Shown here: positions 15,782 through 53,720 of the stretch, piece after piece
Position numbering within the stretch: the stretch's first letter is position 1
How the letters are laid out: every line of letters begins with the position of its first letter
From: Muribaculaceae bacterium
Lineage (GTDB): Bacteria; Bacteroidota; Bacteroidia; Bacteroidales; Muribaculaceae
DNA length: 64,000 nucleotides
Direction: 5' to 3'
Assembly (NCBI GenBank): GCA_029062005.1
Contig: JAIDQZ010000010.1
Location: 1 to 64,000 of the forward strand
The notes under the pieces: generated by a model
What the model saw: only the letters and a program-made list of their open reading frames with translations
Database searches by the model: none
What the model was told of the DNA's origin: nothing
Program-made: the position numbers and the translations under genes

Positions 15782-15812
15782 TTGACTATGTCAAAATATT
15801 TTTGTAATTTTG
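15782..15812 (+). promoter_or_regulatory. Promoter of the pyr block (TTG-N20-TAATTTTG)
   Basis: TTG at 15782-15784 and TAATTTTG at 15805-15812 are 20 nt apart. Transcription should begin near 15816-15820, giving a leader of about 130 nt before pyrC. Confidence 0.8.
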
Positions 15813-15821
15813 CATTCCGAA

Positions 15822-15869
15822 ATGACACGGAATATGATACATAAAAAATATCAACATACGGCATACTGA
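15822..15869 (+). CDS. Candidate 15-aa leader peptide of the pyr block
   Basis: An ATG right after the predicted transcription start opens a 15-codon frame (MTRNMIHKKYQHTAY). Its stop lies 9 nt before an intrinsic terminator. The layout resembles leader-peptide attenuators such as that of enterobacterial pyrBI. Translation of this ORF is not shown by the sequence, and the ATG is only a few nucleotides from the expected 5' end. Confidence 0.4.
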   Translation: MTRNMIHKKYQHTAY

Positions 15870-15878
15870 CTGTAGAGG

Positions 15879-15912
15879 ACACGCACCCCCCTAAGGGTTG
15901 CGTGTTTTTTTT
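15879..15912 (+). terminator. Intrinsic terminator/attenuator in the pyrC leader
   Basis: ACACGCA and TGCGTGT pair, CCC/GGG extends the stem inside, and TTTTTTTT follows. It stands between the promoter and pyrC with no other complete gene before it, so it should limit read-through into the pyr block. Confidence 0.8.
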
Positions 15913-15945
15913 ATGTTAACAATTAAATATAAATAAAATAAAGAA

Positions 15946-38131: not shown

Positions 38132-38163
38132 TTTGGAAAGTTCAAAGTTTTTGATTAACTTTG
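38132..38163 (+). promoter_or_regulatory. Promoter of the purE leader (TTTG-N20-TAACTTTG)
   Basis: TTTG at 38132-38135 and TAACTTTG at 38156-38163 are exactly 20 nt apart. It reads into a 45-codon ORF, a terminator and then purE. No second promoter is visible between the terminator and purE. Confidence 0.8.
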
Positions 38164-38199
38164 CATCAAGTTTTCACATTTAGAGACCAACACCGGAAC

Positions 38200-38337
38200 A
38201 TGCTCATCTCACGAAAGCAAAGACGCCGCTATAAACACCAGTCATTCCGCCGATTGCTGCTTGGCAAGAAGGCAATCCAACAGGTGTGCGGACTTGATGC
38301 TGACATGTGTCGTGCAGTTTCGGATAATTACGCATAG
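38200..38337 (+). CDS. Small basic ORF (45 aa) in the purE leader
   Basis: This frame is too short for the ORF track. ATG 38200 opens 45 codons beginning 'MLISRKQRRRYKHQSFRRLL' with nine Arg or Lys in the first 19 residues. The stop (38335-38337) lies 2 nt before a strong terminator stem, and a full promoter stands 37 nt before the ATG. No known family is recognised. It may be a leader peptide whose translation controls read-through into purE, or an independent small protein gene with its own terminator. The promoter-ORF-terminator-operon order is the same as before pyrC. Confidence 0.55.
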   Translation: MLISRKQRRRYKHQSFRRLLLGKKAIQQVCGLDADMCRAVSDNYA

Positions 38338-38339
38338 GA

Positions 38340-38373
38340 AAGACCGCGTTCCGACCGATCGGAATGCGGTCTT
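38340..38373 (+). terminator. Intrinsic terminator/attenuator before purE
   Basis: AAGACCGCGTTCCGA and TCGGAATGCGGTCTT form a 15-bp stem with one G-T pair and a CCGA loop. The U-rich tail is weak (GCATTTATAA). It ends 17 nt before the purE start codon. Confidence 0.8.
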
Positions 38374-38390
38374 GCATTTATAAAAACTTA

Positions 38391-38870
38391 ATGACAGCAA
38401 TGAAAATCGGTATTGTAATGGGTTCTGCTTCCGATTGGCCCGTAATGAAAGGAAGTGCTGAGATTCTTGATGAATTCGGCGTGGAATACGACAAGAAAGT
38501 ACTTAGTGCCCACCGCACTCCCCATGAACTTGAGGCATGGGTAAGCGGTGCCCGCGAGGCAGGATATGCCGCCATAATAGCAGCTGCCGGAGGTGCAGCC
38601 CACCTTGCCGGCGTGTGCGCAGCGTTCACCACACTCCCTGTGATTGGAGTTCCAATCAAGGCACGTACGCTCGACGGTCTTGACTCACTGCTATCGATGG
38701 TACAGATGCCCTCAGGAATTCCTGTGGCCACCGTCAGCATCGACGGAGCAAAGAATGCGGCTCTTCTTGCTGTTGAAATCATGGCAGTCACCGACAAGGG
38801 GCTTGAAGAGAAGATGGCATCTTTCCGTAAGAAACAAGCCGAAAAAGTGCTTGCAAGCGAACTGAATTAA
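38391..38870 (+). CDS. purE: N5-carboxyaminoimidazole ribonucleotide mutase
   Basis: The 159-residue class I PurE rearranges N5-CAIR to CAIR in purine synthesis. It carries 'GSASDWPVM' near the N-terminus, 'SAHRTP' with the catalytic His, and 'AGGAAHLAG'. The ORF track starts at 38364 inside the terminator hairpin; ATG 38391 or 38400 is the real start. The partner purK is not in the window. It heads the purine block, and its stop is followed after 4 nt by the left arm of an IVS-like unit. Confidence 0.94.
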   Translation: MTAMKIGIVMGSASDWPVMKGSAEILDEFGVEYDKKVLSAHRTPHELEAWVSGAREAGYAAIIAAAGGAAHLAGVCAAFTTLPVIGVPIKARTLDGLDSLLSMVQMPSGIPVATVSIDGAKNAALLAVEIMAVTDKGLEEKMASFRKKQAEKVLASELN

Positions 38871-38874
38871 AATT

Positions 38875-39398
38875 GTTTAATCGTTTAATTGTTTAACTGT
38901 TTAGTTCGGACTCTTTGTTTAATTGTTTAGTTCAATAAGAGATTGACCATGAATTTATTCTCATTTGAAAAGCTTGACGCTTACCAAGAATCTCGTAAAC
39001 TTGCAGTGGAAGTTTATAGGATAATACAGGAATTACCAAGCTATGAAAGATTCGATCTTGGATCTCAGTTAAGAAGATCTATCATATCAGTTTCTTCTAA
39101 TATAGCTGAAGGCTGTGGTAGAGTATCTTTACGGGAAAAGATTCATTTTTTAGAAATCGCTTATGGATCTATGCTTGAAGCATACAGTCAAATCCAATTG
39201 AGTGTGGATTTAAACTATACACATCCAGAAAGAATGACTATGCTTCAGCCTAAATTTTCGTATGTGGCTAATCTTATAAACTCGTTGAGAAAATCATATA
39301 TGATAAAATTAGAAAATAATAATCAAAAATCCACTCCAAATCAAAATTCTCAGTCAAATTCAAATAAACTAAACGATTAAACAATTAAACGATTAAAC
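38875..39398. mobile_element. IVS-like unit 1: 32-bp inverted arms around a four-helix-bundle gene
   Basis: The left arm (38875-38906, starting GTTTAATCGTTTAATTGTTT) and right arm (39367-39398) are inverse copies with 30 of 32 matches. They enclose one four-helix-bundle gene whose stop codon lies inside the right arm. The unit fills the purE/purL gap completely: 4 nt to the purE stop, 14 nt to purL. A shorter extra copy of the left motif lies at 38915-38933. No target duplication or transposase was seen. Confidence 0.65.
38949..39380 (+). CDS. Four-helix-bundle protein (S23 / 23S rRNA IVS-protein family)
   Basis: The 143-residue product belongs to the S23 family (TIGR02436/PF05635 type), seen in 'LGSQLRRSIISVSSNIAEGCGR' (second helix) and 'EIAYGSMLEAYSQIQL'. 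Members are small four-helix bundles that form pentamers, are encoded in intervening sequences of 23S rRNA in some bacteria, and include the Avd protein of retroelements. Their biochemical role is not settled. The last 20 residues are Asn/Gln/Ser-rich and partly encoded by the right repeat arm. The gene is visibly richer in A and T than purE and purL. The start is ATG 38949. Confidence 0.9.
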   Translation: MNLFSFEKLDAYQESRKLAVEVYRIIQELPSYERFDLGSQLRRSIISVSSNIAEGCGRVSLREKIHFLEIAYGSMLEAYSQIQLSVDLNYTHPERMTMLQPKFSYVANLINSLRKSYMIKLENNNQKSTPNQNSQSNSNKLND

Positions 39399-39412: not shown

Positions 39413-42400
39413 ATGAACAAGAATAAACGAATTTTCGTGGAGAAAAGCGGCGCCTACAGGGTTGAAGCCGACAGTCTCCGTCGGGAACTCAATGAAAATC
39501 TCGGTCTTGACATCAAGGATCTGCGTCTGATCTGCGTCTATGATGTATTCAATGCCGATCCGGCACTCGTGGAAGAAGCAAAATACCGTGTCTTCGGCGA
39601 ACCCGCCACCGACACTGTATGCGAGGATTTTGACCTTGACGGAAAGAAATATCTCGCCGTTGAGTGCCTTCCGGGTCAGTTTGACCAGAGGGCTTCGTCT
39701 GCCGAAGACTGCGTAAAGCTTATCGATCCGACTTCGCAGGCTGAGATCAGAAGTGCAAGACTTATGATATTTGACGACGGCGTCAGCGATGAGGATCTTG
39801 AAAAGATAGCTCACTACACCATCAACGCTGTCGAATCGCGCAAAAAGGACATGACAGTGCTTTGTCCCCCCGAGCGTGCCACTGCATCACCGGTAAAAGA
39901 ACTTACAGGATTCCGCGACATAACTCCCGATAAGGCTTCCGCCTACATCAAGGAGATGGGATTGGCGATGAACGATGCCGACCTTATGACAGTAGTGGAC
40001 TACTTCAAGAACGAAGGCAGGGACCCGAAGGAGACCGAACTGAGGATTCTTGATACATACTGGAGCGACCACTGCCGCCACACCACATTCATGACAGAGC
40101 TCACCGACATCGAGGTTGAAGACAGTCCGGTGGCAGATGATATAAGGACTACACTCGAACTTTACCGTCAGATGCGCAAGGACCTCGGTCGCGAAGAAAA
40201 ACGCCTTTGCCTCATGGATCTCGCATGCATCGGCGCACGCTGGCTTAAAAAGCAAGGCATACTCGACGATCAGGAGGAGAGCGAGGAAAATAATGCCTGC
40301 TCCATCGTGATAGATGTGGATACAGAAAACGGAGGTTCAGAGAAGTGGCTTCTGATGTTTAAGAACGAGACTCACAACCATCCTACAGAAATTGAACCTT
40401 TCGGTGGGGCATCCACGTGTCTGGGCGGAGCGATCCGCGATCCGCTGAGCGGTCGCAGCTACGTATATCAGGCAATGCGAGTGACAGGTGCCGGCGATAT
40501 CTACAAGCCTGTGAGCGAGACCATGCAGGGCAAGCTTCCACAGCGCGTCATATCCAAACGTGCGGCAGCGGGCTACAGCAGCTATGGCAACCAGATCGGA
40601 CTTGCCACCACACATGTACGGGAGATATTCCATCCCAACTACGTTGCCAAGCGTCTCGAAGTAGGGGCTGTCGTTGGCGCAGTGAAGCAGGCAGACGTTC
40701 GCCGCGAGCGACCGGCCGCCGGTGATGTAATACTGATGTTTGGCGGACGCACAGGTCGCGACGGCATCGGGGGTGCAACCGGTTCGAGCAAGGAACACAA
40801 TGTAAGTTCTCTTGAGCAGTGCGGCAGTGAAGTGCAGAAGGGCAATGCTCCCGAAGAGCGCAAGATAGAGCGGCTTTTCCATCGTCCGGAAGTGACACGC
40901 CTCATCAAGAAATCAAACGACTTCGGTGCCGGCGGCGTGAGCGTGGCTATCGGAGAACTTGCAGACGGTCTCGACATATACCTTGACCGGGTACCAGTGA
41001 AATACAGCGGACTTAACGCTACAGAGCTTGCCATAAGCGAGAGCCAGGAGCGCATGAGCGTTGTTGTGGAAAAGAAGGATATGGATGAATTCATCAAATA
41101 TTGCCATGAGGAAAACCTCGAAGTCACACACGTGGCAGATGTCACAGACAGAGGCCGCATGCGCATGATGATGAACGGAGAGGTCGTGGCAGACCTGAGC
41201 CGTGAATTCATCGATTCTGCCGGCGCCACCCGCAAGGCTTGCGTAAGAATAAGCGCCGTCACACCGGAAATGCCGCACAAGACACCGGCTTCATTTGAAG
41301 AGATGCTTTCCGACGACAACGTGACTTCCCAGAAAGGACTTATCGAGATGTTTGACTCCACCATAGGTGCTTCCACCGTGCTGATGCCATTTGGCGGCAA
41401 GACCCAGGGCACGGAGACTCAGGTCAGCGTCCAGAAACTTCCCACCGGCGGATACACCAACACTGCAAGCATGATGGCATATGGCTTCAACCCGTTCATC
41501 AGCGAATGGAGTCCCTATCACGGTGCAGCCTACGCCGTGGTAGAAGCAGTAGCAAAAGTTGCTGCAGCCGGCGGCGACACCACTCGCATGCGCTTCTCAT
41601 ATCAGGAATATTTCGAGCGCATGCATTCCGACAAGTCATGGGGAAAACCTGCGGCAGCGCTTCTCGGTGCGCTAAAGATGCAGAAGGAGTTCGGTCTTCC
41701 GTCGATCGGCGGCAAAGACTCGATGAGCGGTACGTTTGCCGATATTTCGGTCCCTCCGACACTTATAGCATTCGGCATAGTGCCCGTAGATGCAAGAGAC
41801 GTGATAAGCCCGGAATTCAAAGAAGCCGGCGACACTCTGTATCTGCTTGAGGCGAAACCACTTGCCAACGGAATGCCGGACACAGACAGGCTGAAGGAGA
41901 ATTTTGCCACCATACATGAAGACATAAAGTCAGGACGTATCAAGGCTGCATATGCCCTCGGATTCGGAGGTCTCGGCGAAGCTGTGGCAAAAATGAGCTT
42001 CGGAAATGAAATAGGAGCAGTAGTAGAATATCCGGAAAATGATCTCTATAAGTGGAACTATGGAGCGATACTTGTCGAAAGTGCTGAAAAGCTCGGCGAC
42101 GCATATCTTCCGATAGGAGCCACAATTGCCGATCCTATTCTCGACATCAACGGTGTCCGCAAAGAAATATCTGTGCTTAAGGAAGCCAACAGCGCACGCT
42201 TCAACGAAATCTATCCCGATCATGCCGATACGAAGGGAACTGCAGAAAACGCCACTTCGGGTGAGAACAAAACCGTGTGGAAAGGTGAGCCTGTAGAGCA
42301 TCCCGTAGTGTACCTTCCGGTATTCCCCGGCACAAACTGCGACTACGACATGATCCGCGCCTTCAGCCGTGAAGGTGCAGAATGCACCACAAGTGTATTC

Positions 42401-43096
42401 TGCAATCTCACTCCGGAACAGACACGTGAATCCGTAGCTACAATGGCACACATGATCGACGAGTGCCACGTGCTTGCATTCAGCGGCGGCTTCTCACTTG
42501 GCGACGAACCAGACGGAAGCGGTAAGTTTATAGCAAGCGTCATCATGAACGAAGCTGTGAAAGAAGCAATCGAGCGACTGCTGAAACGTGGCGGTCTCGT
42601 GATCGGTATCTGCAACGGTTTCCAGGCTCTCGTAAAGTCAGGACTTCTCCCCTTCGGCAAGATAGGCGAACTCTCGGCAGAAAGCCCGACACTCTTCCGA
42701 AACGACATCAACCGCCACATATCTCAGATAGCCGTCACACGCGTCGGAAGCATCGCCTCCCCATGGCTCGACGGCTTCTCTATAGGTCAGCTCCATTCCA
42801 TCGCCGTATCGCATGGCGAGGGTAAGTTTACAGCGAGTGCGGAGCTTGTTAAGCAGCTTTCAGAAGCCGGTCAGATAGCGTTCCAGTATGCCGATGCCGA
42901 CGGCAATGCCACAATGACGAGTCCATTCAACCCTAACGGATCAACCGACGCGATAGAAGGCATCATCAGCCCCTGCGGTCAGATTCTCGGCAAGATGGGA
43001 CACTCGGAGAGATATGATGAAGGTCTGATGAAAAACATCTCAGGCGACAAACGTCAGAATCTCTTTGCTAACGCAGTTAAATACTTCAAAAAATAA
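39413..43096 (+). CDS. purL: Phosphoribosylformylglycinamidine synthase (single-chain)
   Basis: The 1227-residue enzyme converts FGAR to FGAM with glutamine and ATP. It is the large single-chain form: an N-terminal PurS-like part, two AIRS-like halves with 'SDHCRHTTF' and 'NETHNHPTEIEPFGGASTCLGG', and a C-terminal class I glutaminase domain with 'PVFPGTNCDYDM' and nucleophile Cys in 'GICNGFQAL'. No separate purS or purQ is therefore needed. It lies between the first IVS-like unit and purM. Confidence 0.96.
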   Translation: MNKNKRIFVEKSGAYRVEADSLRRELNENLGLDIKDLRLICVYDVFNADPALVEEAKYRVFGEPATDTVCEDFDLDGKKYLAVECLPGQFDQRASSAEDCVKLIDPTSQAEIRSARLMIFDDGVSDEDLEKIAHYTINAVESRKKDMTVLCPPERATASPVKELTGFRDITPDKASAYIKEMGLAMNDADLMTVVDYFKNEGRDPKETELRILDTYWSDHCRHTTFMTELTDIEVEDSPVADDIRTTLELYRQMRKDLGREEKRLCLMDLACIGARWLKKQGILDDQEESEENNACSIVIDVDTENGGSEKWLLMFKNETHNHPTEIEPFGGASTCLGGAIRDPLSGRSYVYQAMRVTGAGDIYKPVSETMQGKLPQRVISKRAAAGYSSYGNQIGLATTHVREIFHPNYVAKRLEVGAVVGAVKQADVRRERPAAGDVILMFGGRTGRDGIGGATGSSKEHNVSSLEQCGSEVQKGNAPEERKIERLFHRPEVTRLIKKSNDFGAGGVSVAIGELADGLDIYLDRVPVKYSGLNATELAISESQERMSVVVEKKDMDEFIKYCHEENLEVTHVADVTDRGRMRMMMNGEVVADLSREFIDSAGATRKACVRISAVTPEMPHKTPASFEEMLSDDNVTSQKGLIEMFDSTIGASTVLMPFGGKTQGTETQVSVQKLPTGGYTNTASMMAYGFNPFISEWSPYHGAAYAVVEAVAKVAAAGGDTTRMRFSYQEYFERMHSDKSWGKPAAALLGALKMQKEFGLPSIGGKDSMSGTFADISVPPTLIAFGIVPVDARDVISPEFKEAGDTLYLLEAKPLANGMPDTDRLKENFATIHEDIKSGRIKAAYALGFGGLGEAVAKMSFGNEIGAVVEYPENDLYKWNYGAILVESAEKLGDAYLPIGATIADPILDINGVRKEISVLKEANSARFNEIYPDHADTKGTAENATSGENKTVWKGEPVEHPVVYLPVFPGTNCDYDMIRAFSREGAECTTSVFCNLTPEQTRESVATMAHMIDECHVLAFSGGFSLGDEPDGSGKFIASVIMNEAVKEAIERLLKRGGLVIGICNGFQALVKSGLLPFGKIGELSAESPTLFRNDINRHISQIAVTRVGSIASPWLDGFSIGQLHSIAVSHGEGKFTASAELVKQLSEAGQIAFQYADADGNATMTSPFNPNGSTDAIEGIISPCGQILGKMGHSERYDEGLMKNISGDKRQNLFANAVKYFKK

Positions 43097-43195
43097 TTTA
43101 GAATTTAGAATTGAGAATTACCCGGCTCGAAAGAATTTTCAACTTTCAATTCTCCACTCAAAAATTCTCAATTCTCAATTCACAATTCTCAATAA
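43095..43195. repeat. Inverted TTTAGAA/AATTGAG arms between purL and purM, family B
   Basis: TTTAGAATTTAGAATTGAG units (43095-43119) are followed after about 15 nt by the inverse CTCAATT units (43134-43195). The ORF track extends purM through this array, which is an artefact. Confidence 0.75.
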
Positions 43196-43203
43196 ATAGT
43201 AAG

Positions 43204-44229
43204 ATGGCTAAATCATATGAAGCCTCCGGCGTGAATCTTGAAGCCGGATATGAAGTGGTAAGCCGCATCAAGAAGCATGTGGCAAGCACAAACCGACCGG
43301 GCGTAATGGGAAATATCGGAGCCTTCGGCGGAATGTTCGATCTCGCAAGCCTCGGCTATAAGGAACCGATTCTGGTGAGCGGCACAGACGGTGTCGGTAC
43401 TAAACTTAAAATCGCATTTGCCGTAGACAAACACGATACAATTGGCATCGATGCAGTAGCGATGTGCGTCAACGACGTTCTTGCTCAGGGTGCCGAACCC
43501 CTTTTCTTCCTTGATTATGTTGCGGTAGGCAAAAACGAGCCGGCGGTAGTGGAAGCTATCGTTTCAGGTGTCGCAGAAGGATGCCGACAGGCAGGATGCG
43601 CCCTTATCGGAGGCGAGACAGCTGAAATGCCGGGCATGTACCAGCCGGGTGACTACGATATCGCAGGATTTACGGTTGGAGCTGTCGACCGTTGCAATCT
43701 TATCGACGGAAGCAAGGTGAAGACAGGCGATGTGCTCGTAGGAATAGCATCTTCAGGCGTACATTCCAATGGATTCTCGCTCGTACGCAAGATCGTCGCA
43801 GACGCAGGACTTGAATTTGACAAGAAATACGAGGAAACAGGCGACCTGACTCTTGGAGAAATACTTCTGACCCCGACACGGATATATGTGAAACCGGTGC
43901 TTGACGTAATCCGCAACGTAGACGTTCACGGAGTGGCACACATCACCGGAGGAGGCTTCGACGAGAATATACCGCGCATACTCCACGACGGTCAGGGTAT
44001 AGAAGTGAAGGAAGGTTCATGGGAAATACTTCCGGTCTTCAGGCTTCTTGAGAAATACGGCAACGTGCCACACCGCGAGATGTTCAACATCTTCAACATG
44101 GGTATCGGCATGGTTCTTGCCGTTGACGAAAAGGATGCCGAAAAAGCCATAGAAATCCTTGAGAAACATGGAGAGAAAGCAAGCGTAATCGGAAAGATCA
44201 CAGACAAACCGGGAGTGGAAATCGTTTAA
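43204..44229 (+). CDS. purM: Phosphoribosylformylglycinamidine cyclo-ligase
   Basis: The 341-residue enzyme closes FGAM to aminoimidazole ribonucleotide with ATP. It has the AIRS fold with '[15 protein letters not shown]' (ATP-binding), '[14 protein letters not shown]' and '[11 protein letters not shown]'. The ORF-track start at 43111 would add 31 residues encoded by the repeat array; ATG 43204 gives the family N-terminus ('[10 protein letters not shown]'). It follows purL and precedes purH across two repeat-filled gaps. Confidence 0.95.
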
Positions 44230-44396
44230 TAAGTTTAAAAGGTTTAGAAGGTTTAATTGGTTTAATTGGTTTAGGTTGTTTAGGTAGTTTAGACCTCATA
44301 AACAACTCCAACTACTCAACAACCCAACAACCTCAAAACTCAACAACCTCAAAACTCAAAAACCCAATAACTCAACAACTCAACAACCCCAATATA
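44230..44396. repeat. Inverted GGTTTAATT / CAACAACCT arms between purM and purH, family B
   Basis: The left part (44230-44283) is a run of GGTTTAATT and GTTTAGGTT units. The right part (44300-44396) is a run of CAACAACCTCAAAACT units. They are roughly inverse to each other and meet the purH start codon with 2 nt to spare. Confidence 0.75.
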
Positions 44397-44398
44397 TA

Positions 44399-45928
44399 AT
44401 GAGAGCATTAATTAGCGTAAGCGACAAGCGTGGCGTAGTTGATTTCGCCCGCGAGCTTCAGGCAATGGGCTGGGACATCATAGCCACCGGAGGCACAATG
44501 AAGGCACTCCGCGACGCCGGTCTGAAGATTATCAATATCAGCGATGTGACAGGATTCCCTGAAATATGCGAAGGTCGCGTCAAGACCCTTCACCCGAAGG
44601 TACATGGCGGTCTTCTCGCACGCCGTGACGTTCCGGAACATATGGCTGAGATCGCAGCCAATGGAATCGAGACAATCGACATGGTATGTGTCAACCTTTA
44701 CCCGTTTGAGGCAACAATCGCAAAAGAGGGAGTGACACTTGCCGATGCGGTTGAGAATATCGACATAGGCGGTCCGTCAATGCTCCGCAGTGCGGCGAAG
44801 AACTTCGCTTCCGTCACTGTAGTCTGCGATCCTGACGACTACGGCAAGATAATCGAGGAAATCCGCTCCACAGGCGACACAACATTGGAGACACGCTTCA
44901 AGCTTTCTGCAAAGGCATATACCCACACAGCACTCTATGACAGCCATATCGCGACCTACATGCGCGAGAAAGCCGGTCTTGAAGAGAAGCTTTTCCTATC
45001 TTTCGACCGCGTGCAGACACTGCGCTACGGCGAGAACCCGCACCAGCAGGCGGCGCTCTATAAAGCTCCTGAGGAGGAATCATATTCTCTGCTCAGCGCC
45101 AAGCAGCTCAATGGCAAGGAACTCAGCTACAACAACATTCAGGATGCCAACGCCGCACTGAATATTGTAAGGGAGTTCGACGAGCCATTCTGCGTCGGCC
45201 TGAAGCATATGAATCCTTGCGGAGCAGCTGTTGGAGCCACCATCGAGGAGGCATGGACCAAGGCTTACGAAGCCGACAAGGTCAGCATCTATGGAGGCAT
45301 TGTGGCTATGAACCGTCCACTTACAATTGATGTGGCAAAATCCATGAAGCCTATCTTCCTTGAGATAGTCATGGCTCCGGCTTTTGATGAAGACGCTCTC
45401 GAACTCTTGAAGACAAAGAAAAACCTCCGTATCCTTGAAGTGAAAATGGATGGATCAAAAGAGGCACAGCGCCAGTATGTAGGTATCAACGGCGGACTTC
45501 TCGTGCAGGATGCCGACACGACTACAAAAGATGTGACTGCAGACATGACTGTGACCGAAAAGAAGCCTACCGAACAGGAACTGAAGGATATGAACTTCGC
45601 ATGGCGTATAGTGAAGCATGTGAAGAGCAATGCCATAGTGATAGTCAAGGGGGGCATGACACTGGGTGTAGGTGCCGGACAGATGAATCGTGTAGGCTCA
45701 GCCGACATCGCCCTTGAGCAGGCTCTTGCCTCAGGCAATACAGAAGGTCTCGTGCTCGGCAGCGACGGATTCCTGCCTTTCGGCGACACAGTGGAGCTCG
45801 TGGCAGACAAAGGAGTCACAGCAATCGTGCAGCCCGGCGGTTCTATCCGTGATCAGGAATCAATTGATAAGGCAAACGAGAAGGGACTGACAATGCTTTT
45901 CACCGGAATGCGCCACTTCAAACACTGA
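44399..45928 (+). CDS. purH: Bifunctional AICAR transformylase / IMP cyclohydrolase
   Basis: The 509-residue enzyme performs the last two steps to IMP. Residues 1-200 are the MGS-like cyclohydrolase domain ('ISVSDKRGVVDFARELQ', 'GRVKTLHPKVHGGLL'). The rest is the formyltransferase domain with 'RYGENPHQQAALY' and the catalytic Lys-His in 'GLKHMNPCGAA'. The C-terminal 'GMRHFKH' is typical. purD starts 6 nt after its stop, so both are on one message. Confidence 0.96.
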   Translation: MRALISVSDKRGVVDFARELQAMGWDIIATGGTMKALRDAGLKIINISDVTGFPEICEGRVKTLHPKVHGGLLARRDVPEHMAEIAANGIETIDMVCVNLYPFEATIAKEGVTLADAVENIDIGGPSMLRSAAKNFASVTVVCDPDDYGKIIEEIRSTGDTTLETRFKLSAKAYTHTALYDSHIATYMREKAGLEEKLFLSFDRVQTLRYGENPHQQAALYKAPEEESYSLLSAKQLNGKELSYNNIQDANAALNIVREFDEPFCVGLKHMNPCGAAVGATIEEAWTKAYEADKVSIYGGIVAMNRPLTIDVAKSMKPIFLEIVMAPAFDEDALELLKTKKNLRILEVKMDGSKEAQRQYVGINGGLLVQDADTTTKDVTADMTVTEKKPTEQELKDMNFAWRIVKHVKSNAIVIVKGGMTLGVGAGQMNRVGSADIALEQALASGNTEGLVLGSDGFLPFGDTVELVADKGVTAIVQPGGSIRDQESIDKANEKGLTMLFTGMRHFKH

Positions 45929-45934
45929 TCTTTT

Positions 45935-47272
45935 ATGGAAATTCATCATTTGAACAGCGAAGCCCTTCCTCCACAGGAAAATCCGCTCCAGTTCCCGAAA
46001 ATGCAGTCGGGACGTGAGGAAGAGGTGCGTCCCGGCAAGACTGTGCTTGTGATCGGCAGCGGCGGCAGGGAACATGCTATCGTAGATGCCCTCTCGCGAA
46101 GCGCCCGCGTGCAGAAGATCTACGCGTGTCCCGGCAATCCGGGAATGGCTAAACATGCCACATGCGTTCCTATCGGTGTCACCGATGTCAATGACCTCGT
46201 GGAATTTGCCAAGGAAAAGAAGGTTGATCTTACTGTAGTGGGTCCTGAGGCATCATTGGCTGCGGGAGTTTCCGATGCGTTCAAGGCTGAGGGGCTGCGT
46301 ATCTTCGGTCCCACAAAGGCAGGTGCCCGCATCGAGTCAAGCAAGGAATTTGCCAAGGAGATAATGGAGAAATACGGTGTTCCCACAGGCTTCTACAAAA
46401 GTTTTGACAATTACGAAGAGGCAAAGGCATATGCCGAGTCCCTACCTCTTCCTACCGTAATAAAGTATGACGGACTTGCTGCAGGCAAGGGAGTTGTTGT
46501 AGCTGCTACTCGTGAGGAAGCAGATGCCGCCCTGCGCGACATGCTTCTCGACTCCGCTTTCGGACAGGGACGCGTGCTAATCGAGGAGTTTCTTGACGGT
46601 CCTGAATTCTCATTCATGTGCGCTGTTGGGGGCAGGAAGGTATATCCCCTTGCTCTGGCGCAGGATCACAAACGTGCATACGACGGCGACAAAGGTCCCA
46701 ACACAGGTGGCATGGGGGCATATTCGCCGCTTCCCTTCATTACTGACGAAGTGCGGGAAAGGGCTCTTAAGGAAATTCTTCAGCGCACAGCCGACGGACT
46801 TGCTGACGAAGGCATCGACTATACAGGTATCCTTTACGGCGGACTAATCCTGACAAAGGATGGACCGAAAGTGATAGAGTTCAACGCTCGTTTCGGCGAC
46901 CCGGAGACAGAAGTAGTGCTACCTCGACTCGAAAGCGACATCTATGATCTCTTCGATGCTGCAATAGACTCGGCCGATCATGAGACCAAATGGAGCGACG
47001 ATGCATGTCTCGGAGTGGTTCTTGCTTCCGACGGATACCCGGGTTCCTATAAAAAAGGAGTTGAACTTGACTTCAGCGGCTGCTCAAAAGTCTACCACAT
47101 GGGCACTGCCATGAAAGACGGCAAACTCCTGACAGCCGGGGGTAGAGTAGCAATGGTGACCGGAAAAGGTAAGACACTTGAGGAAGCCGCTGCCAACGCC
47201 TATGCCGACGTAAGGAAAGCTGCCAGAGAAGGACTTTTCTATCGCTCTGACATCGGCAAGCAAGTTTTATAA
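45935..47272 (+). CDS. purD: Phosphoribosylamine-glycine ligase with N-terminal extension
   Basis: The 445-residue ATP-grasp enzyme joins phosphoribosylamine and glycine. The conserved core starts at 'KTVLVIGSGGREHAI' (about residue 34) and includes 'GLAAGKGVVVA' and 'IEFNARFGDPETE'. The first 33 residues ('MEIHHLNSEALPPQ...') are not part of the family. They may be real, since ATG 45935 is only 6 nt after purH, or translation may start at Met23 (46001). A family A repeat follows the stop. Confidence 0.93.
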   Translation: MEIHHLNSEALPPQENPLQFPKMQSGREEEVRPGKTVLVIGSGGREHAIVDALSRSARVQKIYACPGNPGMAKHATCVPIGVTDVNDLVEFAKEKKVDLTVVGPEASLAAGVSDAFKAEGLRIFGPTKAGARIESSKEFAKEIMEKYGVPTGFYKSFDNYEEAKAYAESLPLPTVIKYDGLAAGKGVVVAATREEADAALRDMLLDSAFGQGRVLIEEFLDGPEFSFMCAVGGRKVYPLALAQDHKRAYDGDKGPNTGGMGAYSPLPFITDEVRERALKEILQRTADGLADEGIDYTGILYGGLILTKDGPKVIEFNARFGDPETEVVLPRLESDIYDLFDAAIDSADHETKWSDDACLGVVLASDGYPGSYKKGVELDFSGCSKVYHMGTAMKDGKLLTAGGRVAMVTGKGKTLEEAAANAYADVRKAAREGLFYRSDIGKQVL

Positions 47273-47282
47273 ATCATAAAAA

Positions 47283-47513
47283 ATAATTGAGAATTGAGAA
47301 TTTTGAATCTATCATACATCTTTGCAAATAATTACGGTCTCGGTAGGGACGTACGGCTCGTGCGTCCGCGATCCGAAATATGCAAATGCTGTGTATAATG
47401 CCAATTGCTATGCGGACGCACGGGCCGTGCGTCCCTACCCGGCTATTGAAATAATTCTCAATTCAAAACTACTTTAGATTCTCAATTATTCAAAATTCTT
47501 AATTATAAATTGC
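47283..47513. repeat. Family B arms around a family A element in the purD/purB gap
   Basis: AATTGAG-type units (47283-47308) and the inverse CTCAATT/AAATTCT-type units (47454-47513) flank the palindromic doublet listed separately. The purB start codon follows 3 nt after the right arm. Confidence 0.7.
47342..47455. repeat. Family A element, locus 5, with conserved spacer and right flank
   Basis: Palindromes at 47347-47367 (one base changed, GTACG) and 47414-47434 (centre GGG) enclose a spacer with 'GCTGTGTATAATGCC', the same as at locus 4. The right flank 'GGCTATTGAAATAATT' is shared with loci 4 and 8. Confidence 0.85.
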
Positions 47514-47516
47514 AAT

Positions 47517-48812
47517 ATGACTGACAGATACGGAAGAGACGTGATGCGTCGCGTCTGGACTGAAAAGAATAAATTTGACGCCTATCTCAAGGTGGAGATC
47601 CTTGCCGCAGAGGCGTGGAGCAAACTTGGTGTCATTCCGGAGGAAGATGTGAAAAAACTCTGGGACAAAGCCACCTTCGACATCGACAGGATTAAGGAAA
47701 TCGAGCTTCAGACCCGGCACGATGTAGTGGCATTCACCCGTGCCGTCAGCGAGAGTCTCGGCGAGGAACGCAAGTGGGTGCACTACGGACTGACTTCCAC
47801 CGATGTGGTGGACACGGCAAACGGATACCTCTTCAAGCAGGCTGATGAAATAATCCGTGAAGACCTTGAGAAATTCTGCGAGATGCTTAAGAAACAGGCA
47901 ATACGCTTCAAAAATCTCCCTTGCATCGGACGTACCCACGGCATACATGCCGACATCACGAGCTTCGGCTTGAAATGGGTGCTATGGCTCGCTGAGATGA
48001 AACGCAACGTGGAGCGATTCAATCTCGCTGCCGCAGGGGTTGAGGTAGGCAAACTGAGCGGTGCCGTTGGTAACTTCGCAAACATCCCTCCGTTTATTCA
48101 GGATTATGTATGCGAACACCTCGGCATCAACTCCGCTGACGTTTCCACACAGGTGATACAGCGCGACCGCCATGCCTACTATATGGCTACACTCGCCGTG
48201 ATAGCATCCTCGCTTGAACAGATGGCAATGGAAGTGCGCAACCTTCAGCGCACCGAGGTGCATGAAGTGGAAGAGGCATTCGGCAAAGGACAGAAGGGAT
48301 CGAGTGCCATGCCCCATAAGCGCAATCCGATCGGCAGCGAGAATATATGCGGCTGTGCCCGCGTGATGCGCGGATATATGGCAACTGCATATGAAAACGT
48401 CGCACTCTGGCATGAGCGTGACATTTCCCACTCAGCCACCGAACGCATCATCATGCCAGACGCCACGATCCTTCTCGACTATATGCTCAACCGCATGATG
48501 GGTATTCTTGAAAATCTGACCATCTTCGAAGACAAGATGAAGGCGGATATCTATATGACCAATGGCGTCATCTTCGCCCAGCGCGTCATGAACGCCCTGA
48601 TCGGCAAAGGTTGGGTTCGCGAACAGGCTTATGACACCGTGCAACCGGTAGCCATGAAAGCAATGGCAACCGGAAGCAACTACCAAGACCTCCTTCTCCA
48701 GACCCCGGCAGTCATGGAAATGCTGACTCCCGAAGAACTCGAAGCATGCTTCACTCTCGATTACTATCTCAAGAACGTCGATTACATCTACAAAAGAAAC
48801 AAAGTTGAATAA
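47517..48812 (+). CDS. purB: Adenylosuccinate lyase
   Basis: The 431-residue enzyme cleaves SAICAR in the IMP pathway and adenylosuccinate in the AMP branch. It is a fumarase/aspartase superfamily member with '[12 protein letters not shown]', '[11 protein letters not shown]' and the signature loop '[11 protein letters not shown]'. It lies directly before the second IVS-like unit, which separates it from purA. Confidence 0.96.
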
Positions 48813-49302
48813 TTTTGAATTTTGAATTTTGAATTTAGAATTATGGGAAAGAGAGAAGACAATGTTGTTCTTACAAAAGCAATGGATTTCGCTGTGAGGA
48901 TTGTAAAACTTTGCAAATATCTTTCTACTGAAAAGAAAGAATATGTACTTTCCAAACAACTCTTAAGATGTGGAACATCCATTGGAGCAAATCTTTATGA
49001 AGCAAACGAAGGCTTCTCTGATAAGGATTTCCAATACAAGATATATATATCTTTAAAAGAAGCAAGAGAAACTGAATATTGGCTGGAACTTATGTTTCGG
49101 ACTGACTATATAAGTCACAAGGAATATGAGAGCATAAATGCAGACTGCGTAGAATTGCTCAAACTTCTTGTAAGCATAACTAAAACTTTGAATAGTAAGA
49201 CATCTGACCCGGAAACAAATTATTTATTCTGAATTCAATCAACACGTGATTCAAAATATTCAATTAGAATAATTCAAAATTCTAAATTAAAAATTCTAAA
49301 TT
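48813..49302. mobile_element. IVS-like unit 2: AT-rich inverted arms around a four-helix-bundle gene
   Basis: The left arm (48813-48842, TTTTGAATTTTGAATTTTGA-type) starts on the base after the purB stop, and its last base abuts the ATG of the enclosed gene. The right arm (about 49250-49302) carries the inverse units AATTCAAAATTCTAAATT, with roughly 24 of 30 matches to the left arm, and ends 3 nt before purA. The arrangement repeats that of unit 1 with a different arm sequence. Confidence 0.6.
48843..49232 (+). CDS. Four-helix-bundle protein (S23 family), second copy
   Basis: The 129-residue product is an S23-type four-helix bundle: 'LSKQLLRCGTSIGANLYEAN' and 'DFQYKIYISLKEARETEYWL' are the conserved helix 2 and helix 3 segments. 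It is clearly diverged from the copy between purE and purL, so the two are not a recent local duplication. The ORF track starts at TTG 48822 inside the repeat arm; ATG 48843 is chosen. Like the first copy it is richer in A and T than its neighbours. Its role is unknown. Confidence 0.9.
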   Translation: MGKREDNVVLTKAMDFAVRIVKLCKYLSTEKKEYVLSKQLLRCGTSIGANLYEANEGFSDKDFQYKIYISLKEARETEYWLELMFRTDYISHKEYESINADCVELLKLLVSITKTLNSKTSDPETNYLF

Positions 49303-49305
49303 ATC

Positions 49306-50598
49306 ATGAGCGAACGATTAGTTGTCACCGGCTCACAGTGGGGAGACGAGGGCAAAGGAAAGATTACCGACTATTTCGCATGCCGCGCCGACATGGTGGT
49401 ACGCTATCAGGGCGGCAACAACGCCGGACATTCCGTAATGTTCGACGGTCATAAATACTCTCTCCAGAGTATTCCCTCCGGCATCTTCAACCCTAAGACC
49501 GTCAATGTAATGGCAAACGGCATGGTGGTGAATCCCGTCTCAGTGATAGCTGAGCTGGAAAAACTCCATAATCAGGGTATCACTGATTATCAGCTATATA
49601 TATCTGATCGGGCAGCCATGGTGATGCCGTGGCACAGCATGCTTGACGGAGCAAGCGAAAGCCTGAAGGGAGACGCGAAGATAGGCACTACAAAGAAAGG
49701 TATCGGTCCGGCTTATACCGACAAATATTCACGTCTCGGACTCCGGATGGGCGATCTTCTTGATCCCGAATACTTTGCAGAACGCCTCAAAGCTGCGCTC
49801 GAAGTGAAGAATATGGAACTCAAGATGTACGGTCTCGAACCTCTCGACTATCAGCAGGTCTACGATCAATATATGGAGATAGCGAAAGTGCTCGGACCTC
49901 GCATCTGCGACACAAGCCTTCTTATCGACGATGCGATCCACACCGATGCGAAGATCCTTTTCGAAGGAGCACAGGGCATGATGCTCTGCATCGACCATGG
50001 CACATATCCTTATGTCACATCATCATGTCCTTCAGCCGCCAGCATCTCTCAGGGCGCAGGAATCGCACCTAAATGGATCGAGAACGTTGTCGGTGTCGCC
50101 AAGGCATACTGCACGCGTGTGGGAGAAGGACCATTTCCCACGGAGCTCTTTGATGAAACGGCACATGAGATACGCGAACGTGGTCATGAATACGGTACTG
50201 TCACCGGACGTCCTCGCCGTATCGGATGGTTTGATGCTGTTGTGGCGCGCTACACTGCCCGGCTTGCAGGTATCGACTATTGGGCACTTATGCTTTTCGA
50301 TGTCCTCTCAGGTCTCGACAAGGTAAAGATATGCGTGGGCTACGAACTCGAAGGCAAGGAAGTAATGGCTCCCCCTTCCACCATCCACAAGCTTGCACAG
50401 TGCAAACCCGTCTACATTGAGATGGAAGGCTGGAAGGAAGATATCACCGGTTGTAAAAGCTATGACGAGCTCCCTGAGGCAGCGAAGGCATATGTAAGAA
50501 AGATCGAGGAACTCACCGGCACAAAGGTAGGCATCATTTCCGTCGGACCCGACCGTTCCCAGACCATCATGATCTCCGAAAAGCTAAAAGCATTTTAA
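49306..50598 (+). CDS. purA: Adenylosuccinate synthetase
   Basis: The 430-residue enzyme joins IMP and aspartate with GTP in the AMP branch. The P-loop is 'GSQWGDEGKGK' at the N-terminus, with catalytic Asp in it and His in 'NNAGHSV'; 'TGRPRRIGWFD' is the GTP/IMP-binding region. The length is normal. It begins right after the second IVS-like unit. Confidence 0.96.
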   Translation: MSERLVVTGSQWGDEGKGKITDYFACRADMVVRYQGGNNAGHSVMFDGHKYSLQSIPSGIFNPKTVNVMANGMVVNPVSVIAELEKLHNQGITDYQLYISDRAAMVMPWHSMLDGASESLKGDAKIGTTKKGIGPAYTDKYSRLGLRMGDLLDPEYFAERLKAALEVKNMELKMYGLEPLDYQQVYDQYMEIAKVLGPRICDTSLLIDDAIHTDAKILFEGAQGMMLCIDHGTYPYVTSSCPSAASISQGAGIAPKWIENVVGVAKAYCTRVGEGPFPTELFDETAHEIRERGHEYGTVTGRPRRIGWFDAVVARYTARLAGIDYWALMLFDVLSGLDKVKICVGYELEGKEVMAPPSTIHKLAQCKPVYIEMEGWKEDITGCKSYDELPEAAKAYVRKIEELTGTKVGIISVGPDRSQTIMISEKLKAF

Positions 50599-50711
50599 TT
50601 TCTAATTTCAAATTTTGAATTTAGAAAAAAAGATTGTATATAAATTTCGCTGAGTAATCGAAGAAATAACATTCTTAATTTTAAATTCAAAATTAGCCAA
50701 AATTCTCAATT
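50597..50711. repeat. Inverted AATTTCAAATTTTGAA arms between purA and guaB, family B
   Basis: The left arm (50597-50629) overlaps the purA stop codon and the right arm (50671-50711) carries inverse TTTAAATTCAAAATT and CTCAATT units. The centre of about 40 nt holds no gene. Confidence 0.7.
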
Positions 50712-50719
50712 GATAAACT

Positions 50720-52192
50720 ATGGGTTTTTTAGATGAAAAAATAGCATTGGAAGGCTTTACATTCGATGATGTCCTGCTCATTCCGGCATACTCGGAGGTG
50801 ATTCCGAGCGAGGTTAAGCTCGGTTCCCGCTTCTCACGCAATATTCCCCTCAATATTCCTTTTGTCTCGGCAGCCATGGACACCGTGACGGAATCAGATA
50901 TGGCTATCGCCATCGCCCGCCAGGGAGGTATCGGAGTGATCCATAAAAACATGAGCATTCAGGCTCAGGCAGATCAGGTGCGCCGTGTGAAGCGTGCCGA
51001 ATCAGGCATGATCTATGATCCGGTGACCATTCATGGCGACAAGACCGTAGGCGATGCGCTCAAGCTGATGCATGATAATCACATCGGAGGTATTCCGGTC
51101 GTTGACAAAGATGGAAAACTCGAAGGAATCGTGACAAACCGCGACCTCCGATTCCAGAAAGACATGGGAATCCTCATAAAGGATGTGATGACAAAGGAAA
51201 ACCTTATCACCACTACCAATCCGAGTCTCTCGGAAGCTTCAGATATCCTTCTGAAACATAAGATCGAGAAACTCCCGGTAGTAGATGCCGACGGAAAGCT
51301 TGAAGGTCTCATCACATACCGCGACATAACGAAAATCAAGGATTATCCCAATGCGGCAAAAGACAGCAAGGGTCGTCTTCGTGTGGCAGCCGGAGTCGGT
51401 GTCACCTCCGACACTCTCGACCGTGTGAAGGCTCTCGTGGAGGCAGGAGCGGATGCCGTTGTGATCGATACTGCACACGGTCACAGCCAGAATGTTGTCA
51501 ACACCCTGAAGAAAGTCAAGGCTGCTTATCCTGCACTTGACGTAGTCGTAGGCAATATCGCGACGGCAGACGCTGCGAGATTCCTCATAGAGGCAGGTGC
51601 CGACGGCATCAAGGTAGGCATTGGTCCCGGCTCCATATGCACCACTCGCATTGTAGCGGGTGTGGGCGTTCCGCAGCTGACAGCAATCTTCGAGGCAGCC
51701 AAGGCAGCACATGAGCTGGGCGTGCCGGTGATAGCCGACGGTGGTCTCCGCTATTCAGGCGACGTTGTGAAGGCACTTGCAGCAGGTGGCGACAGCGTAA
51801 TGATGGGATCAATGTTTGCAGGCACCGAAGAGTCTCCGGGTGAGACAATTATCTATAACGGACGTAAGTTCAAGTCATACCGTGGCATGGGTAGCATCTC
51901 CGCAATGCAGGCAGGATCGAAAGACCGCTACTTCCAGAGCGAGAAGACCGACAGCAGCAAGTTCGTGCCGGAAGGTATCGAAGCACGTGTACCCTATAAG
52001 GGAACCCTCAGCGAGACTATCTATCAGCTCGTAGGCGGACTTAGAAGCGGCATGGGTTATGTAGGTGCACCCGACATCGATCACCTGCACAATGCGAAGT
52101 TCGTGAAGATCACATCTGCGGCAGTCATCGAAAACCACCCCCACGATGTGACCATCACCAAAGAAGCCCCCAACTATACACGTGGTAATTAA
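50720..52192 (+). CDS. guaB: IMP dehydrogenase
   Basis: The 490-residue enzyme oxidises IMP to XMP, the first step to GMP. The barrel is interrupted by two CBS domains (about residues 95-210, '[21 protein letters not shown]'), which bind adenine or guanine nucleotides for control. Catalytic Cys is in 'GPGSICTTR', and '[10 protein letters not shown]' is the IMP-binding flap region. It ends 1 nt before guaA, so the two are one transcript. Confidence 0.96.
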
Positions 52193-52193
52193 T

Positions 52194-53720
52194 ATGGAAA
52201 AGATATTAATAATTGATTTTGGATCGCAGTATACTCAGCTTATCGCAAGAAGAGTGCGTGAGCTCAACGTGTATTGTGAGATCCATCCCTTCCACAAGGT
52301 GCCGGAGATTGACTCCGATGTGAAAGGTGTGATTCTGTCAGGTAGTCCTTACTCTGTCAATGACCCGGAGGCTCCCAAGCCTTCGCTCGATGCTTTCAAG
52401 GGCAAGCTTCCGCTGTTAGGAGTCTGCTATGGCGCCCAGCTTCTCGCCCAGATGGCAGGAGGAACAGTGAAAGGAGCGCCGAGCCGTGAATACGGTCGCG
52501 CTATGCTCACTGTAGTCGATGACAATGATCCCCTCATGCATGGTCTCCCCTCACCCACCCAGGTGTGGATGAGCCATGGAGACACTATCACTGACATTCC
52601 CGCATCATTCCATATCATTGGAAGCACCGAGAATGTGCGTGTGGCAGCTTATCATATCGAGGGAGAACAGACCTGGGGAATCCAGTTCCACCCCGAGGTA
52701 TATCATTCCACCGACGGCACACAGCTTCTGCGCAACTATGTGATAGGCATCTGCGGATGCTCGGGCACATGGAGTCCCGATTCCTTCATCGAGACCACAG
52801 TGGCTGAGCTGAAGGAAAAGATCGGTGATGATCAGGTGATCCTCGGTCTTTCAGGAGGTGTCGACTCGACAGTGGCAGCAGTACTTCTCAACAAGGCAAT
52901 CGGACACAACCTGCAATGTATCTTCGTAAACAACGGTCTTCTCCGTCTCAATGAGTTTGAGGGCGTTCTTGAGCAATACAAGGGAATGGGACTTAACGTC
53001 AAGGGTGTAGATGCCAGCGAACGTTTCTATACCGACCTCGCAGGCGTTACTGATCCGGAGCAGAAGCGCAAGATAATAGGAAGGGACTTCGTCGAGGTAT
53101 TCAACGAAGAGGCACAGAAATTCAATGGTGCCCGCTGGCTCGCACAAGGCACTATCTATCCTGACGTGATCGAGAGCGTGAGTGTCAACGGACCATCGTG
53201 CACCATCAAGTCACACCATAATGTAGGCGGACTTCCCGAAAAGATGAATCTCAAGGTAGTGGAGCCGCTGCGCCTGCTTTTCAAAGATGAGGTGCGTCGC
53301 GTGGGCAAAGCACTTGGTATCGACCCGCAGCTTCTTGGTCGCCATCCATTCCCGGGTCCCGGTCTTGGTATCCGTATCCTTGGAGAAGTGACTGCAGAGA
53401 AAGTGCATGTGCTTCAGCAAGCCGACGACATCTTCATCAGCAATCTCCGTGAGGCTGGTCTTTATGATCAGGTTTGGCAAGCAGGAGCAATCTTGCTCCC
53501 GGTGCAGAGTGTAGGCGTAATGGGCGATGAGCGCACATACGAACGCTGCTGTGCGCTGAGAGCGGTAATCTCTACCGATGGCATGACAGCCGACTGGGTA
53601 CATCTCCCCTATGAATTCCTTGCCAAAGTCAGCAACGAAATCATCAACAAAGTCCGTGGCATCAACCGCGTAGTCTACGACATCTCTTCAAAACCGCCAG
53701 CCACAATCGAGTGGGAATAA
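52194..53720 (+). CDS. guaA: GMP synthase (glutamine-hydrolysing)
   Basis: The 508-residue enzyme aminates XMP to GMP. The N-terminal class I glutaminase domain has nucleophile Cys in 'GVCYGAQLL' and 'QFHPEVYHS'. The ATP pyrophosphatase domain has the PP-loop 'LSGGVDSTV'. The C-terminal dimer domain ends in 'KPPATIEWE'. ATG 52194, just after guaB, is preferred to the TTG/ATG mix used by the ORF track. A palindromic terminator follows. Confidence 0.96.

Follow-up and report, generated by a model that had tools for sequence, protein, structure and literature searches.

Introduction

In the pyrBI operon of Escherichia coli, a U-tract precedes the terminator, and the stop codon of the leader frame pyrL lies beyond the stem. 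At E. coli pyrE, the rph frame stops a few nucleotides before the terminator, and a ribosome at the end of this frame prevents the hairpin from folding. In the TnaC system, a short translated leader is present and the position of the ribosome decides on termination; the tna operon uses Rho, an arrest at the stop codon, and fixed spacing. Ribosome-polymerase coupling on the pyrBI (pyrL) leader suppresses termination (PMC5021804). A stop codon located 5 bp before a terminator decreased termination in E. coli from about 90% to less than 10%, and termination was restored without translation (PMC4824070).

The leader described here precedes purE in a Muribaculaceae bacterium (contig JAIDQZ010000010.1); the whole stretch of 64,000 nucleotides that was analyzed is referred to as the window. 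The locus shares with pyrBI a translated leader that extends to an intrinsic terminator located ahead of the first structural gene; unlike pyrBI, the purE leaders have no U-tract, their stop codon is placed just before the stem, the N-terminal part of the peptide is conserved, and the pathway is that of purines. The pyrC leaders of relatives assigned to group 2 are closer to pyrBI, with a U-tract before the terminator and an ORF extending to or through it. The position of the purE-leader stop, shortly 5′ of the hairpin, resembles E. coli pyrE, for which a physical precedent is available (PMC4824070); however, rph is a full gene, whereas the purE leader frame is a dedicated short leader. The intrinsic terminator and the variable spacing from the conserved residues to the stop distinguish it from TnaC. 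The purE leader probably works like pyrBI/pyrE attenuation, but it was not classified as a member of the pyrBI type because its N-terminal peptide is conserved and a nucleotide-specific pause is only a candidate. In the open-access literature that was searched, neither a report of this design for purine genes nor an account of the control of purine synthesis in gut Bacteroidales was found; the main text of a study on leader-like small ORFs in the 5′ UTRs of Bacteroides thetaiotaomicron gives no example from pur or pyr genes and no mechanism for them. With such a leader, translation-coupled attenuation, known from pyrimidine genes, would also apply to purine genes, and the coupling of ribosome and polymerase in Bacteroidota could be assayed in a natural system.

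Organization of the purE Leader

Inspection of the sequence revealed, in this order on the forward strand, a promoter (TTG-N20-TAACTTTG), a 45-codon ORF, a 15-bp hairpin, and purE. The promoter (38133..38163) is of the Bacteroidota type and was recognized from the sequence, a promoter scan, and relatives; its −33 TTG (38133-38135) and −7 TAACTTTG (38156-38163) elements show the 23-nt offset that the scan detected in other promoters of the window. Among the forward-strand promoters of the window with exact TTG spacing, only those of purE and pyrC lead into a leader ORF with a terminator behind it. The 5′ untranslated leader (38168..38199, forward strand) is followed by the ORF (38200..38337, forward strand; ATG at 38200, TAG at 38335-38337), which encodes MLISRKQRRRYKHQSFRRLLLGKKAIQQVCGLDADMCRAVSDNYA and whose frame is kept in relatives. 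Within the ORF, a GTGTGC element (38284..38289, forward strand), found through its enrichment in leaders and considered a candidate RNA-polymerase pause site, is located 56 nt 5′ of the stem.

The intrinsic-terminator-like hairpin and its U tail (38340..38381, forward strand) were assigned on the basis of sequence, folding, and relatives. The arms AAGACCGCGTTCCGA (38340-38354) and TCGGAATGCGGTCTT (38359-38373) begin 2 nt past the ORF stop and have a predicted energy of −24.9 kcal/mol. The U tail is weak in the window (GCATTTAT), and given this weakness termination may be partial. The ATG of purE (38391..38870, forward strand), the first gene of the purine block as judged by sequence and relatives, follows the end of the hairpin after 17 nt. 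No promoter was detected between hairpin and gene, these 17 nt containing no TANNTTTG. A sigma70-like match was located at 38300-38328, with the scan total at chance level, and a transcript starting from it would still begin before the hairpin. The promoter, the 45-codon ORF, the terminator, and the stop codon 2 nt from the stem all lie where the earlier note had placed them, and its statement that no promoter separates the terminator from purE was borne out. Its description of the ORF as basic also holds, the mean net charge being +6.3 and positive in 50 of the 53 representatives.

The whole leader, terminator included, folds better than shuffled sequences (z −4.1). The segment ACCGGAACATGC of the untranslated leader can pair with GTGCAGTTTCGG at the ORF end; this pairing occurs in the MFE structure and in the consensus fold of the window's subclade, with G-U variation and no two-sided covariation. 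A helix covering the start codon is possible from this modeling and, if real, would make the start codon inaccessible after transcription of the 3′ part, so that only the pioneer ribosome would act.

Conservation of the Layout among Relatives

Two sets of leaders were compared. The first set was taken from relatives with a closer-type purE (about 60-99% identity), Muribaculaceae predominating, and some of its terminators were inspected and then corrected manually. Genomes found with an Alistipes purE, most of them from a single further family of the order, supplied the second set, which was scored fully automatically; three very short matches in it (L224, L229, and L231) probably rest on a wrong promoter call. 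A promoter, a leader, and a GC-rich hairpin were present in nearly all relatives with a closer-type purE, and the same promoter element as in the window opens nearly every leader.

In the first set, 46/53 leaders have an ORF with 25 codons or more whose end lies between −15 and +5 nt of the stem, compared with 4.4 ± 2.1 in shuffles (maximum 11 of 200), and in the second set 17/21 leaders do, compared with 1.9 ± 1.4 (maximum 6); the leaders being related sequences, these shuffle statistics overstate independence. When the ORF was taken from the first ATG, 40 of 51 leaders had its end at −15 to +30 nt relative to the stem (dinucleotide shuffles, 8.0 ± 2.3), and the stop-to-stem distance peaked at −6 to −1 nt. 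The stop-at-stem layout is conserved in two families, Muribaculaceae and Rikenellaceae, far above chance; the earlier note had taken the presence of the layout at both nucleotide blocks of the window to make chance less likely. The ORF lengths (3 to 76 codons) and most of the peptide sequence differ among relatives with the end point at the stem kept; DNA alignment of leaders across subclades is barely possible, and the hairpin occupies the same place with a different sequence. With distant-type purE (about 50% identity), the layout is mostly absent.

The genomes called one genus split into two groups (L071-L090 and L004-L068), in one of which purE and pyrC are about 50% and 30% identical to those of the window, respectively; leaders occur mostly in the closer group only. 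A tRNA-like gene is located immediately 5′ of the leader ORF, apparently after the promoter, in two purE leaders (L048 and L122) and two pyrC leaders (L107 and L115). In the purE leader L130, a first ORF overlaps at ATGA with another one that stops 6 nt before the terminator stem.

Evolution of the Leader ORF

In the subclade of the window, codons 1-19 showed a pN/pS of 0.30 with a pS of 0.49, against 0.57 for purE itself; the low ratio together with near-neutral synonymous change indicates that the frame is translated and evolves as a protein. The earlier note had named the lack of codon-level conservation as the observation that would count against it, and for these codons the opposite was found. 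The pN/pS value increased to 0.75 in codons 20-29 and to 0.98 in codons 30-45, where pS was 0.19 and little change was observed at both kinds of sites, which indicates a constraint on nucleotides. By these values, the ORF consists of an N-terminus held at the peptide level, a free spacer, and a 3′ section held at the nucleotide level, followed by the stop at the stem.

Arg, Lys, and His are abundant in the leader peptides. The motif x-I-[SDG] was found within residues 2-19 of 25 of the 53 representative peptides, compared with 4.5 ± 2.0 in shuffled sequences and 7-8 in other frames, and was encoded by varied codons. Similar N-terminal strings (HISQHERRRY, NIDQRERKKR, and LISRKQRRRY) are present in two families. 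The hexamer CATATC occurs in 19/43 leaders. Depending on the leader, about 20 to 60 codons separate the N-terminal motif from the stop, and the shortest leaders (MKK* and MKGK*) are without the motif. The conserved basic N-terminus probably tunes the early progress of the ribosome.

GTGTGC Element

GTGTGC was the most enriched hexamer, present in 24/43 representative leaders against 1.7 expected; its expectation in the window is 0.04 per 170 nt. Its codon phases (13:12:12) are independent of the frame. It is missing from about 40% of the representative leaders, some of them with the full layout, and from all 21 pyrC leaders. No conserved pairing partner was found for it (Fisher p 0.57), and a long-range helix CACAU/GUGUG, seen by eye and in single folds, had no support against shuffles. 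A G is located nine nucleotides upstream of the element in 16 of 29 cases. At the RNA-polymerase pause consensus G−10 Y−1 G+1, the polymerase waits for GTP (PMC9291695). GTGTGC fits the Y−1 G+1 part of this consensus, and the match at G−10 is suggestive; a GTP-sensitive pause at this element is plausible as the purine sensor. A purine-rich tract before the stem was also considered as an ATP/GTP sensor and rejected as unspecific, the leaders of pyrC group 1 being equally purine-rich.

The purE leaders contain no U-tract: the T fraction of their last 35 nt was 0.22 versus 0.40 in pyrC group 2 (p 3e-7). A purine counterpart of pyrBI attenuation, in which a GTP-waiting pause at GTGTGC would be combined with a basic N-terminal peptide timing the ribosome, is a tentative proposal and, on the whole, a doubtful one. 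If it is true, the pyrC leaders of relatives would represent the same chassis with a U-tract, so that the pause sequence would choose the nucleotide sensed.

Proposed Mechanism and Alternative Explanations

The layout, its conservation, the translated frame, and the absence of an alternative antiterminator pairing are seen in the sequences, and the region is likely an attenuator that couples transcription of the purine block to translation of the leader, its actuator being the stop at the stem. Only 1/53 leaders showed an antiterminator at p < 0.05 (median p 0.51), i.e., none is conserved; as an Rfam family and a GTGTGC helix are lacking too, direct occlusion of the hairpin by a ribosome at the stop is the simplest reading. 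RNA polymerase would start at about 38168, transcribe the leader, and meet the intrinsic terminator 17 nt before purE. In the ON state, a ribosome following closely would reach the stop 2 nt before the stem and cover the 5′ arm, so that the hairpin would be blocked and purE transcribed; with a ribosome lagging or never loaded, the hairpin would form and transcription would end (OFF). Purine supply could act by changing the speeds at which polymerase and ribosome move relative to each other: at low GTP, for example, slow GTP-dependent escape of the polymerase from GTGTGC would allow the leader ribosome to catch up. We infer that the terminator is active in vivo, that ribosome occupancy is the control, and that the purine input acts through these speeds. 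The translation-coupled antitermination suggested by the earlier note is well supported by the stop-at-stem position in two families, the diverging peptide, and the E. coli precedent, while its purine-sensing part keeps the standing of a presumption about the signal.

A point against the coupling model is the conserved N-terminus, which a device based on coupling alone would not require. In a nascent-peptide sensor, [HN]-I-[SDG] followed by Arg/Lys would pause or arrest the ribosome early in response to a purine-related ligand, and release would open the terminator path. The excess of x-I-[SDG] over shuffled peptides, the similar strings in two families, and the purifying selection on codons 1-19 agree with such a sensor, but the variable distance from motif to stop is unlike TnaC-type arrest, the shortest leaders do without the motif, and a nucleotide motif (CATATC) could account for some of the signal. 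It is possible, though rather unlikely, and is compatible with the coupling model as its sensing part. A riboswitch, in which the blocks CCGAAACATATC, CGAAAGC, and GTGTGC would form a ligand-binding RNA with the ORF being secondary, appears unlikely: the occurrence of GTGTGC in all three codon phases, the nucleotide constraint on codons 30-45, and the fold z-score fit it, but the leaders had no Rfam match at the gathering threshold or at E 1, GTGTGC lacks a partner, no antiterminator was found, the consensus fold in subclade A has no covarying pairs, and the frame is plainly kept.

The translated basic peptide with its conserved N-terminus would also suit a gene for a small regulatory protein with its own terminator, acting in trans and neighboring purE by chance, which had been raised earlier as the other option. 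This reading is now disfavored and very unlikely, as the C-terminal half drifts along the rising pN/pS gradient, codons 20-45 show no conservation at the protein level, the length ranges over 3-76 codons with no family match, the genome contains a single copy, and in two families the ORF is situated directly before purE and ends at the stem. A classical amino-acid attenuator of the trpL/hisL type, with regulatory codons, competing hairpins, and possibly Arg or His as its signal, is suggested by the richness of the peptides in Arg, Lys, and His, but is highly improbable considering that no conserved pairing competes with the terminator arm, no fixed run of a single codon is present, and purE is not an amino-acid gene.

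Purine Block and pyrC Leader

The leader may govern about 15 kb, since no TTG-supported promoter was found by the window promoter scan after purE in the one-strand purine block. The genes purL, purM, purH, purD, purB, purA, guaB, and guaA (39413..53720, forward strand), of which purL, purM, purH, and purD were named from translation and context, are probably under the same leader as purE, their co-transcription being deduced from this arrangement. If one switch that is read by the ribosome and needs no repressor controls the entire block, this would be a simple solution to the regulation of purine synthesis in gut Bacteroidales. No second copy (paralogue) of the leader was found in the same genome, and its purF and purC have no leader ORF with a terminator. 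At purF (L201), a near-leaderless 10-codon ORF (MNRVYGMLNP) directly follows the promoter, with no GC-rich terminator.

The pyrC leader (15782..15945, forward strand), identified from the sequence and relatives (L092-L099), has the same layout as the purE leader. It comprises TTG at 15782, TAATTTTG at 15805-15812, a 15-codon ORF (MTRNMIHKKYQHTAY) at 15822-15869, a stem from 15875, and T8, with pyrC starting at about 15946; the order noted before both genes was confirmed, a short ORF being followed by a terminator. In pyrC group 2 of relatives, the U-tract is located directly before the terminator. A small inverted repeat, AACGGAA...TTCCG, was observed in eleven leaders of this group (L102, L103, L105, L108, L109, L112, L113-L116, and L118), and several group 2 leaders have a two-codon ORF (ATGAAATGA) overlapping the leader start.

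Two 23S_rRNA_IVP (PF05635) ORFs are present inside the purine block, at 38943-39380 (between purE and purL) and 48822-49232 (between purB and purA), with AATTGAGAATT/TTTGAATTT-type repeats at their flanks. In the interval from purD to purB (47273-47510), there is a long GC-rich inverted repeat, composed of GTAGGGACGTACGG... and its near complement.
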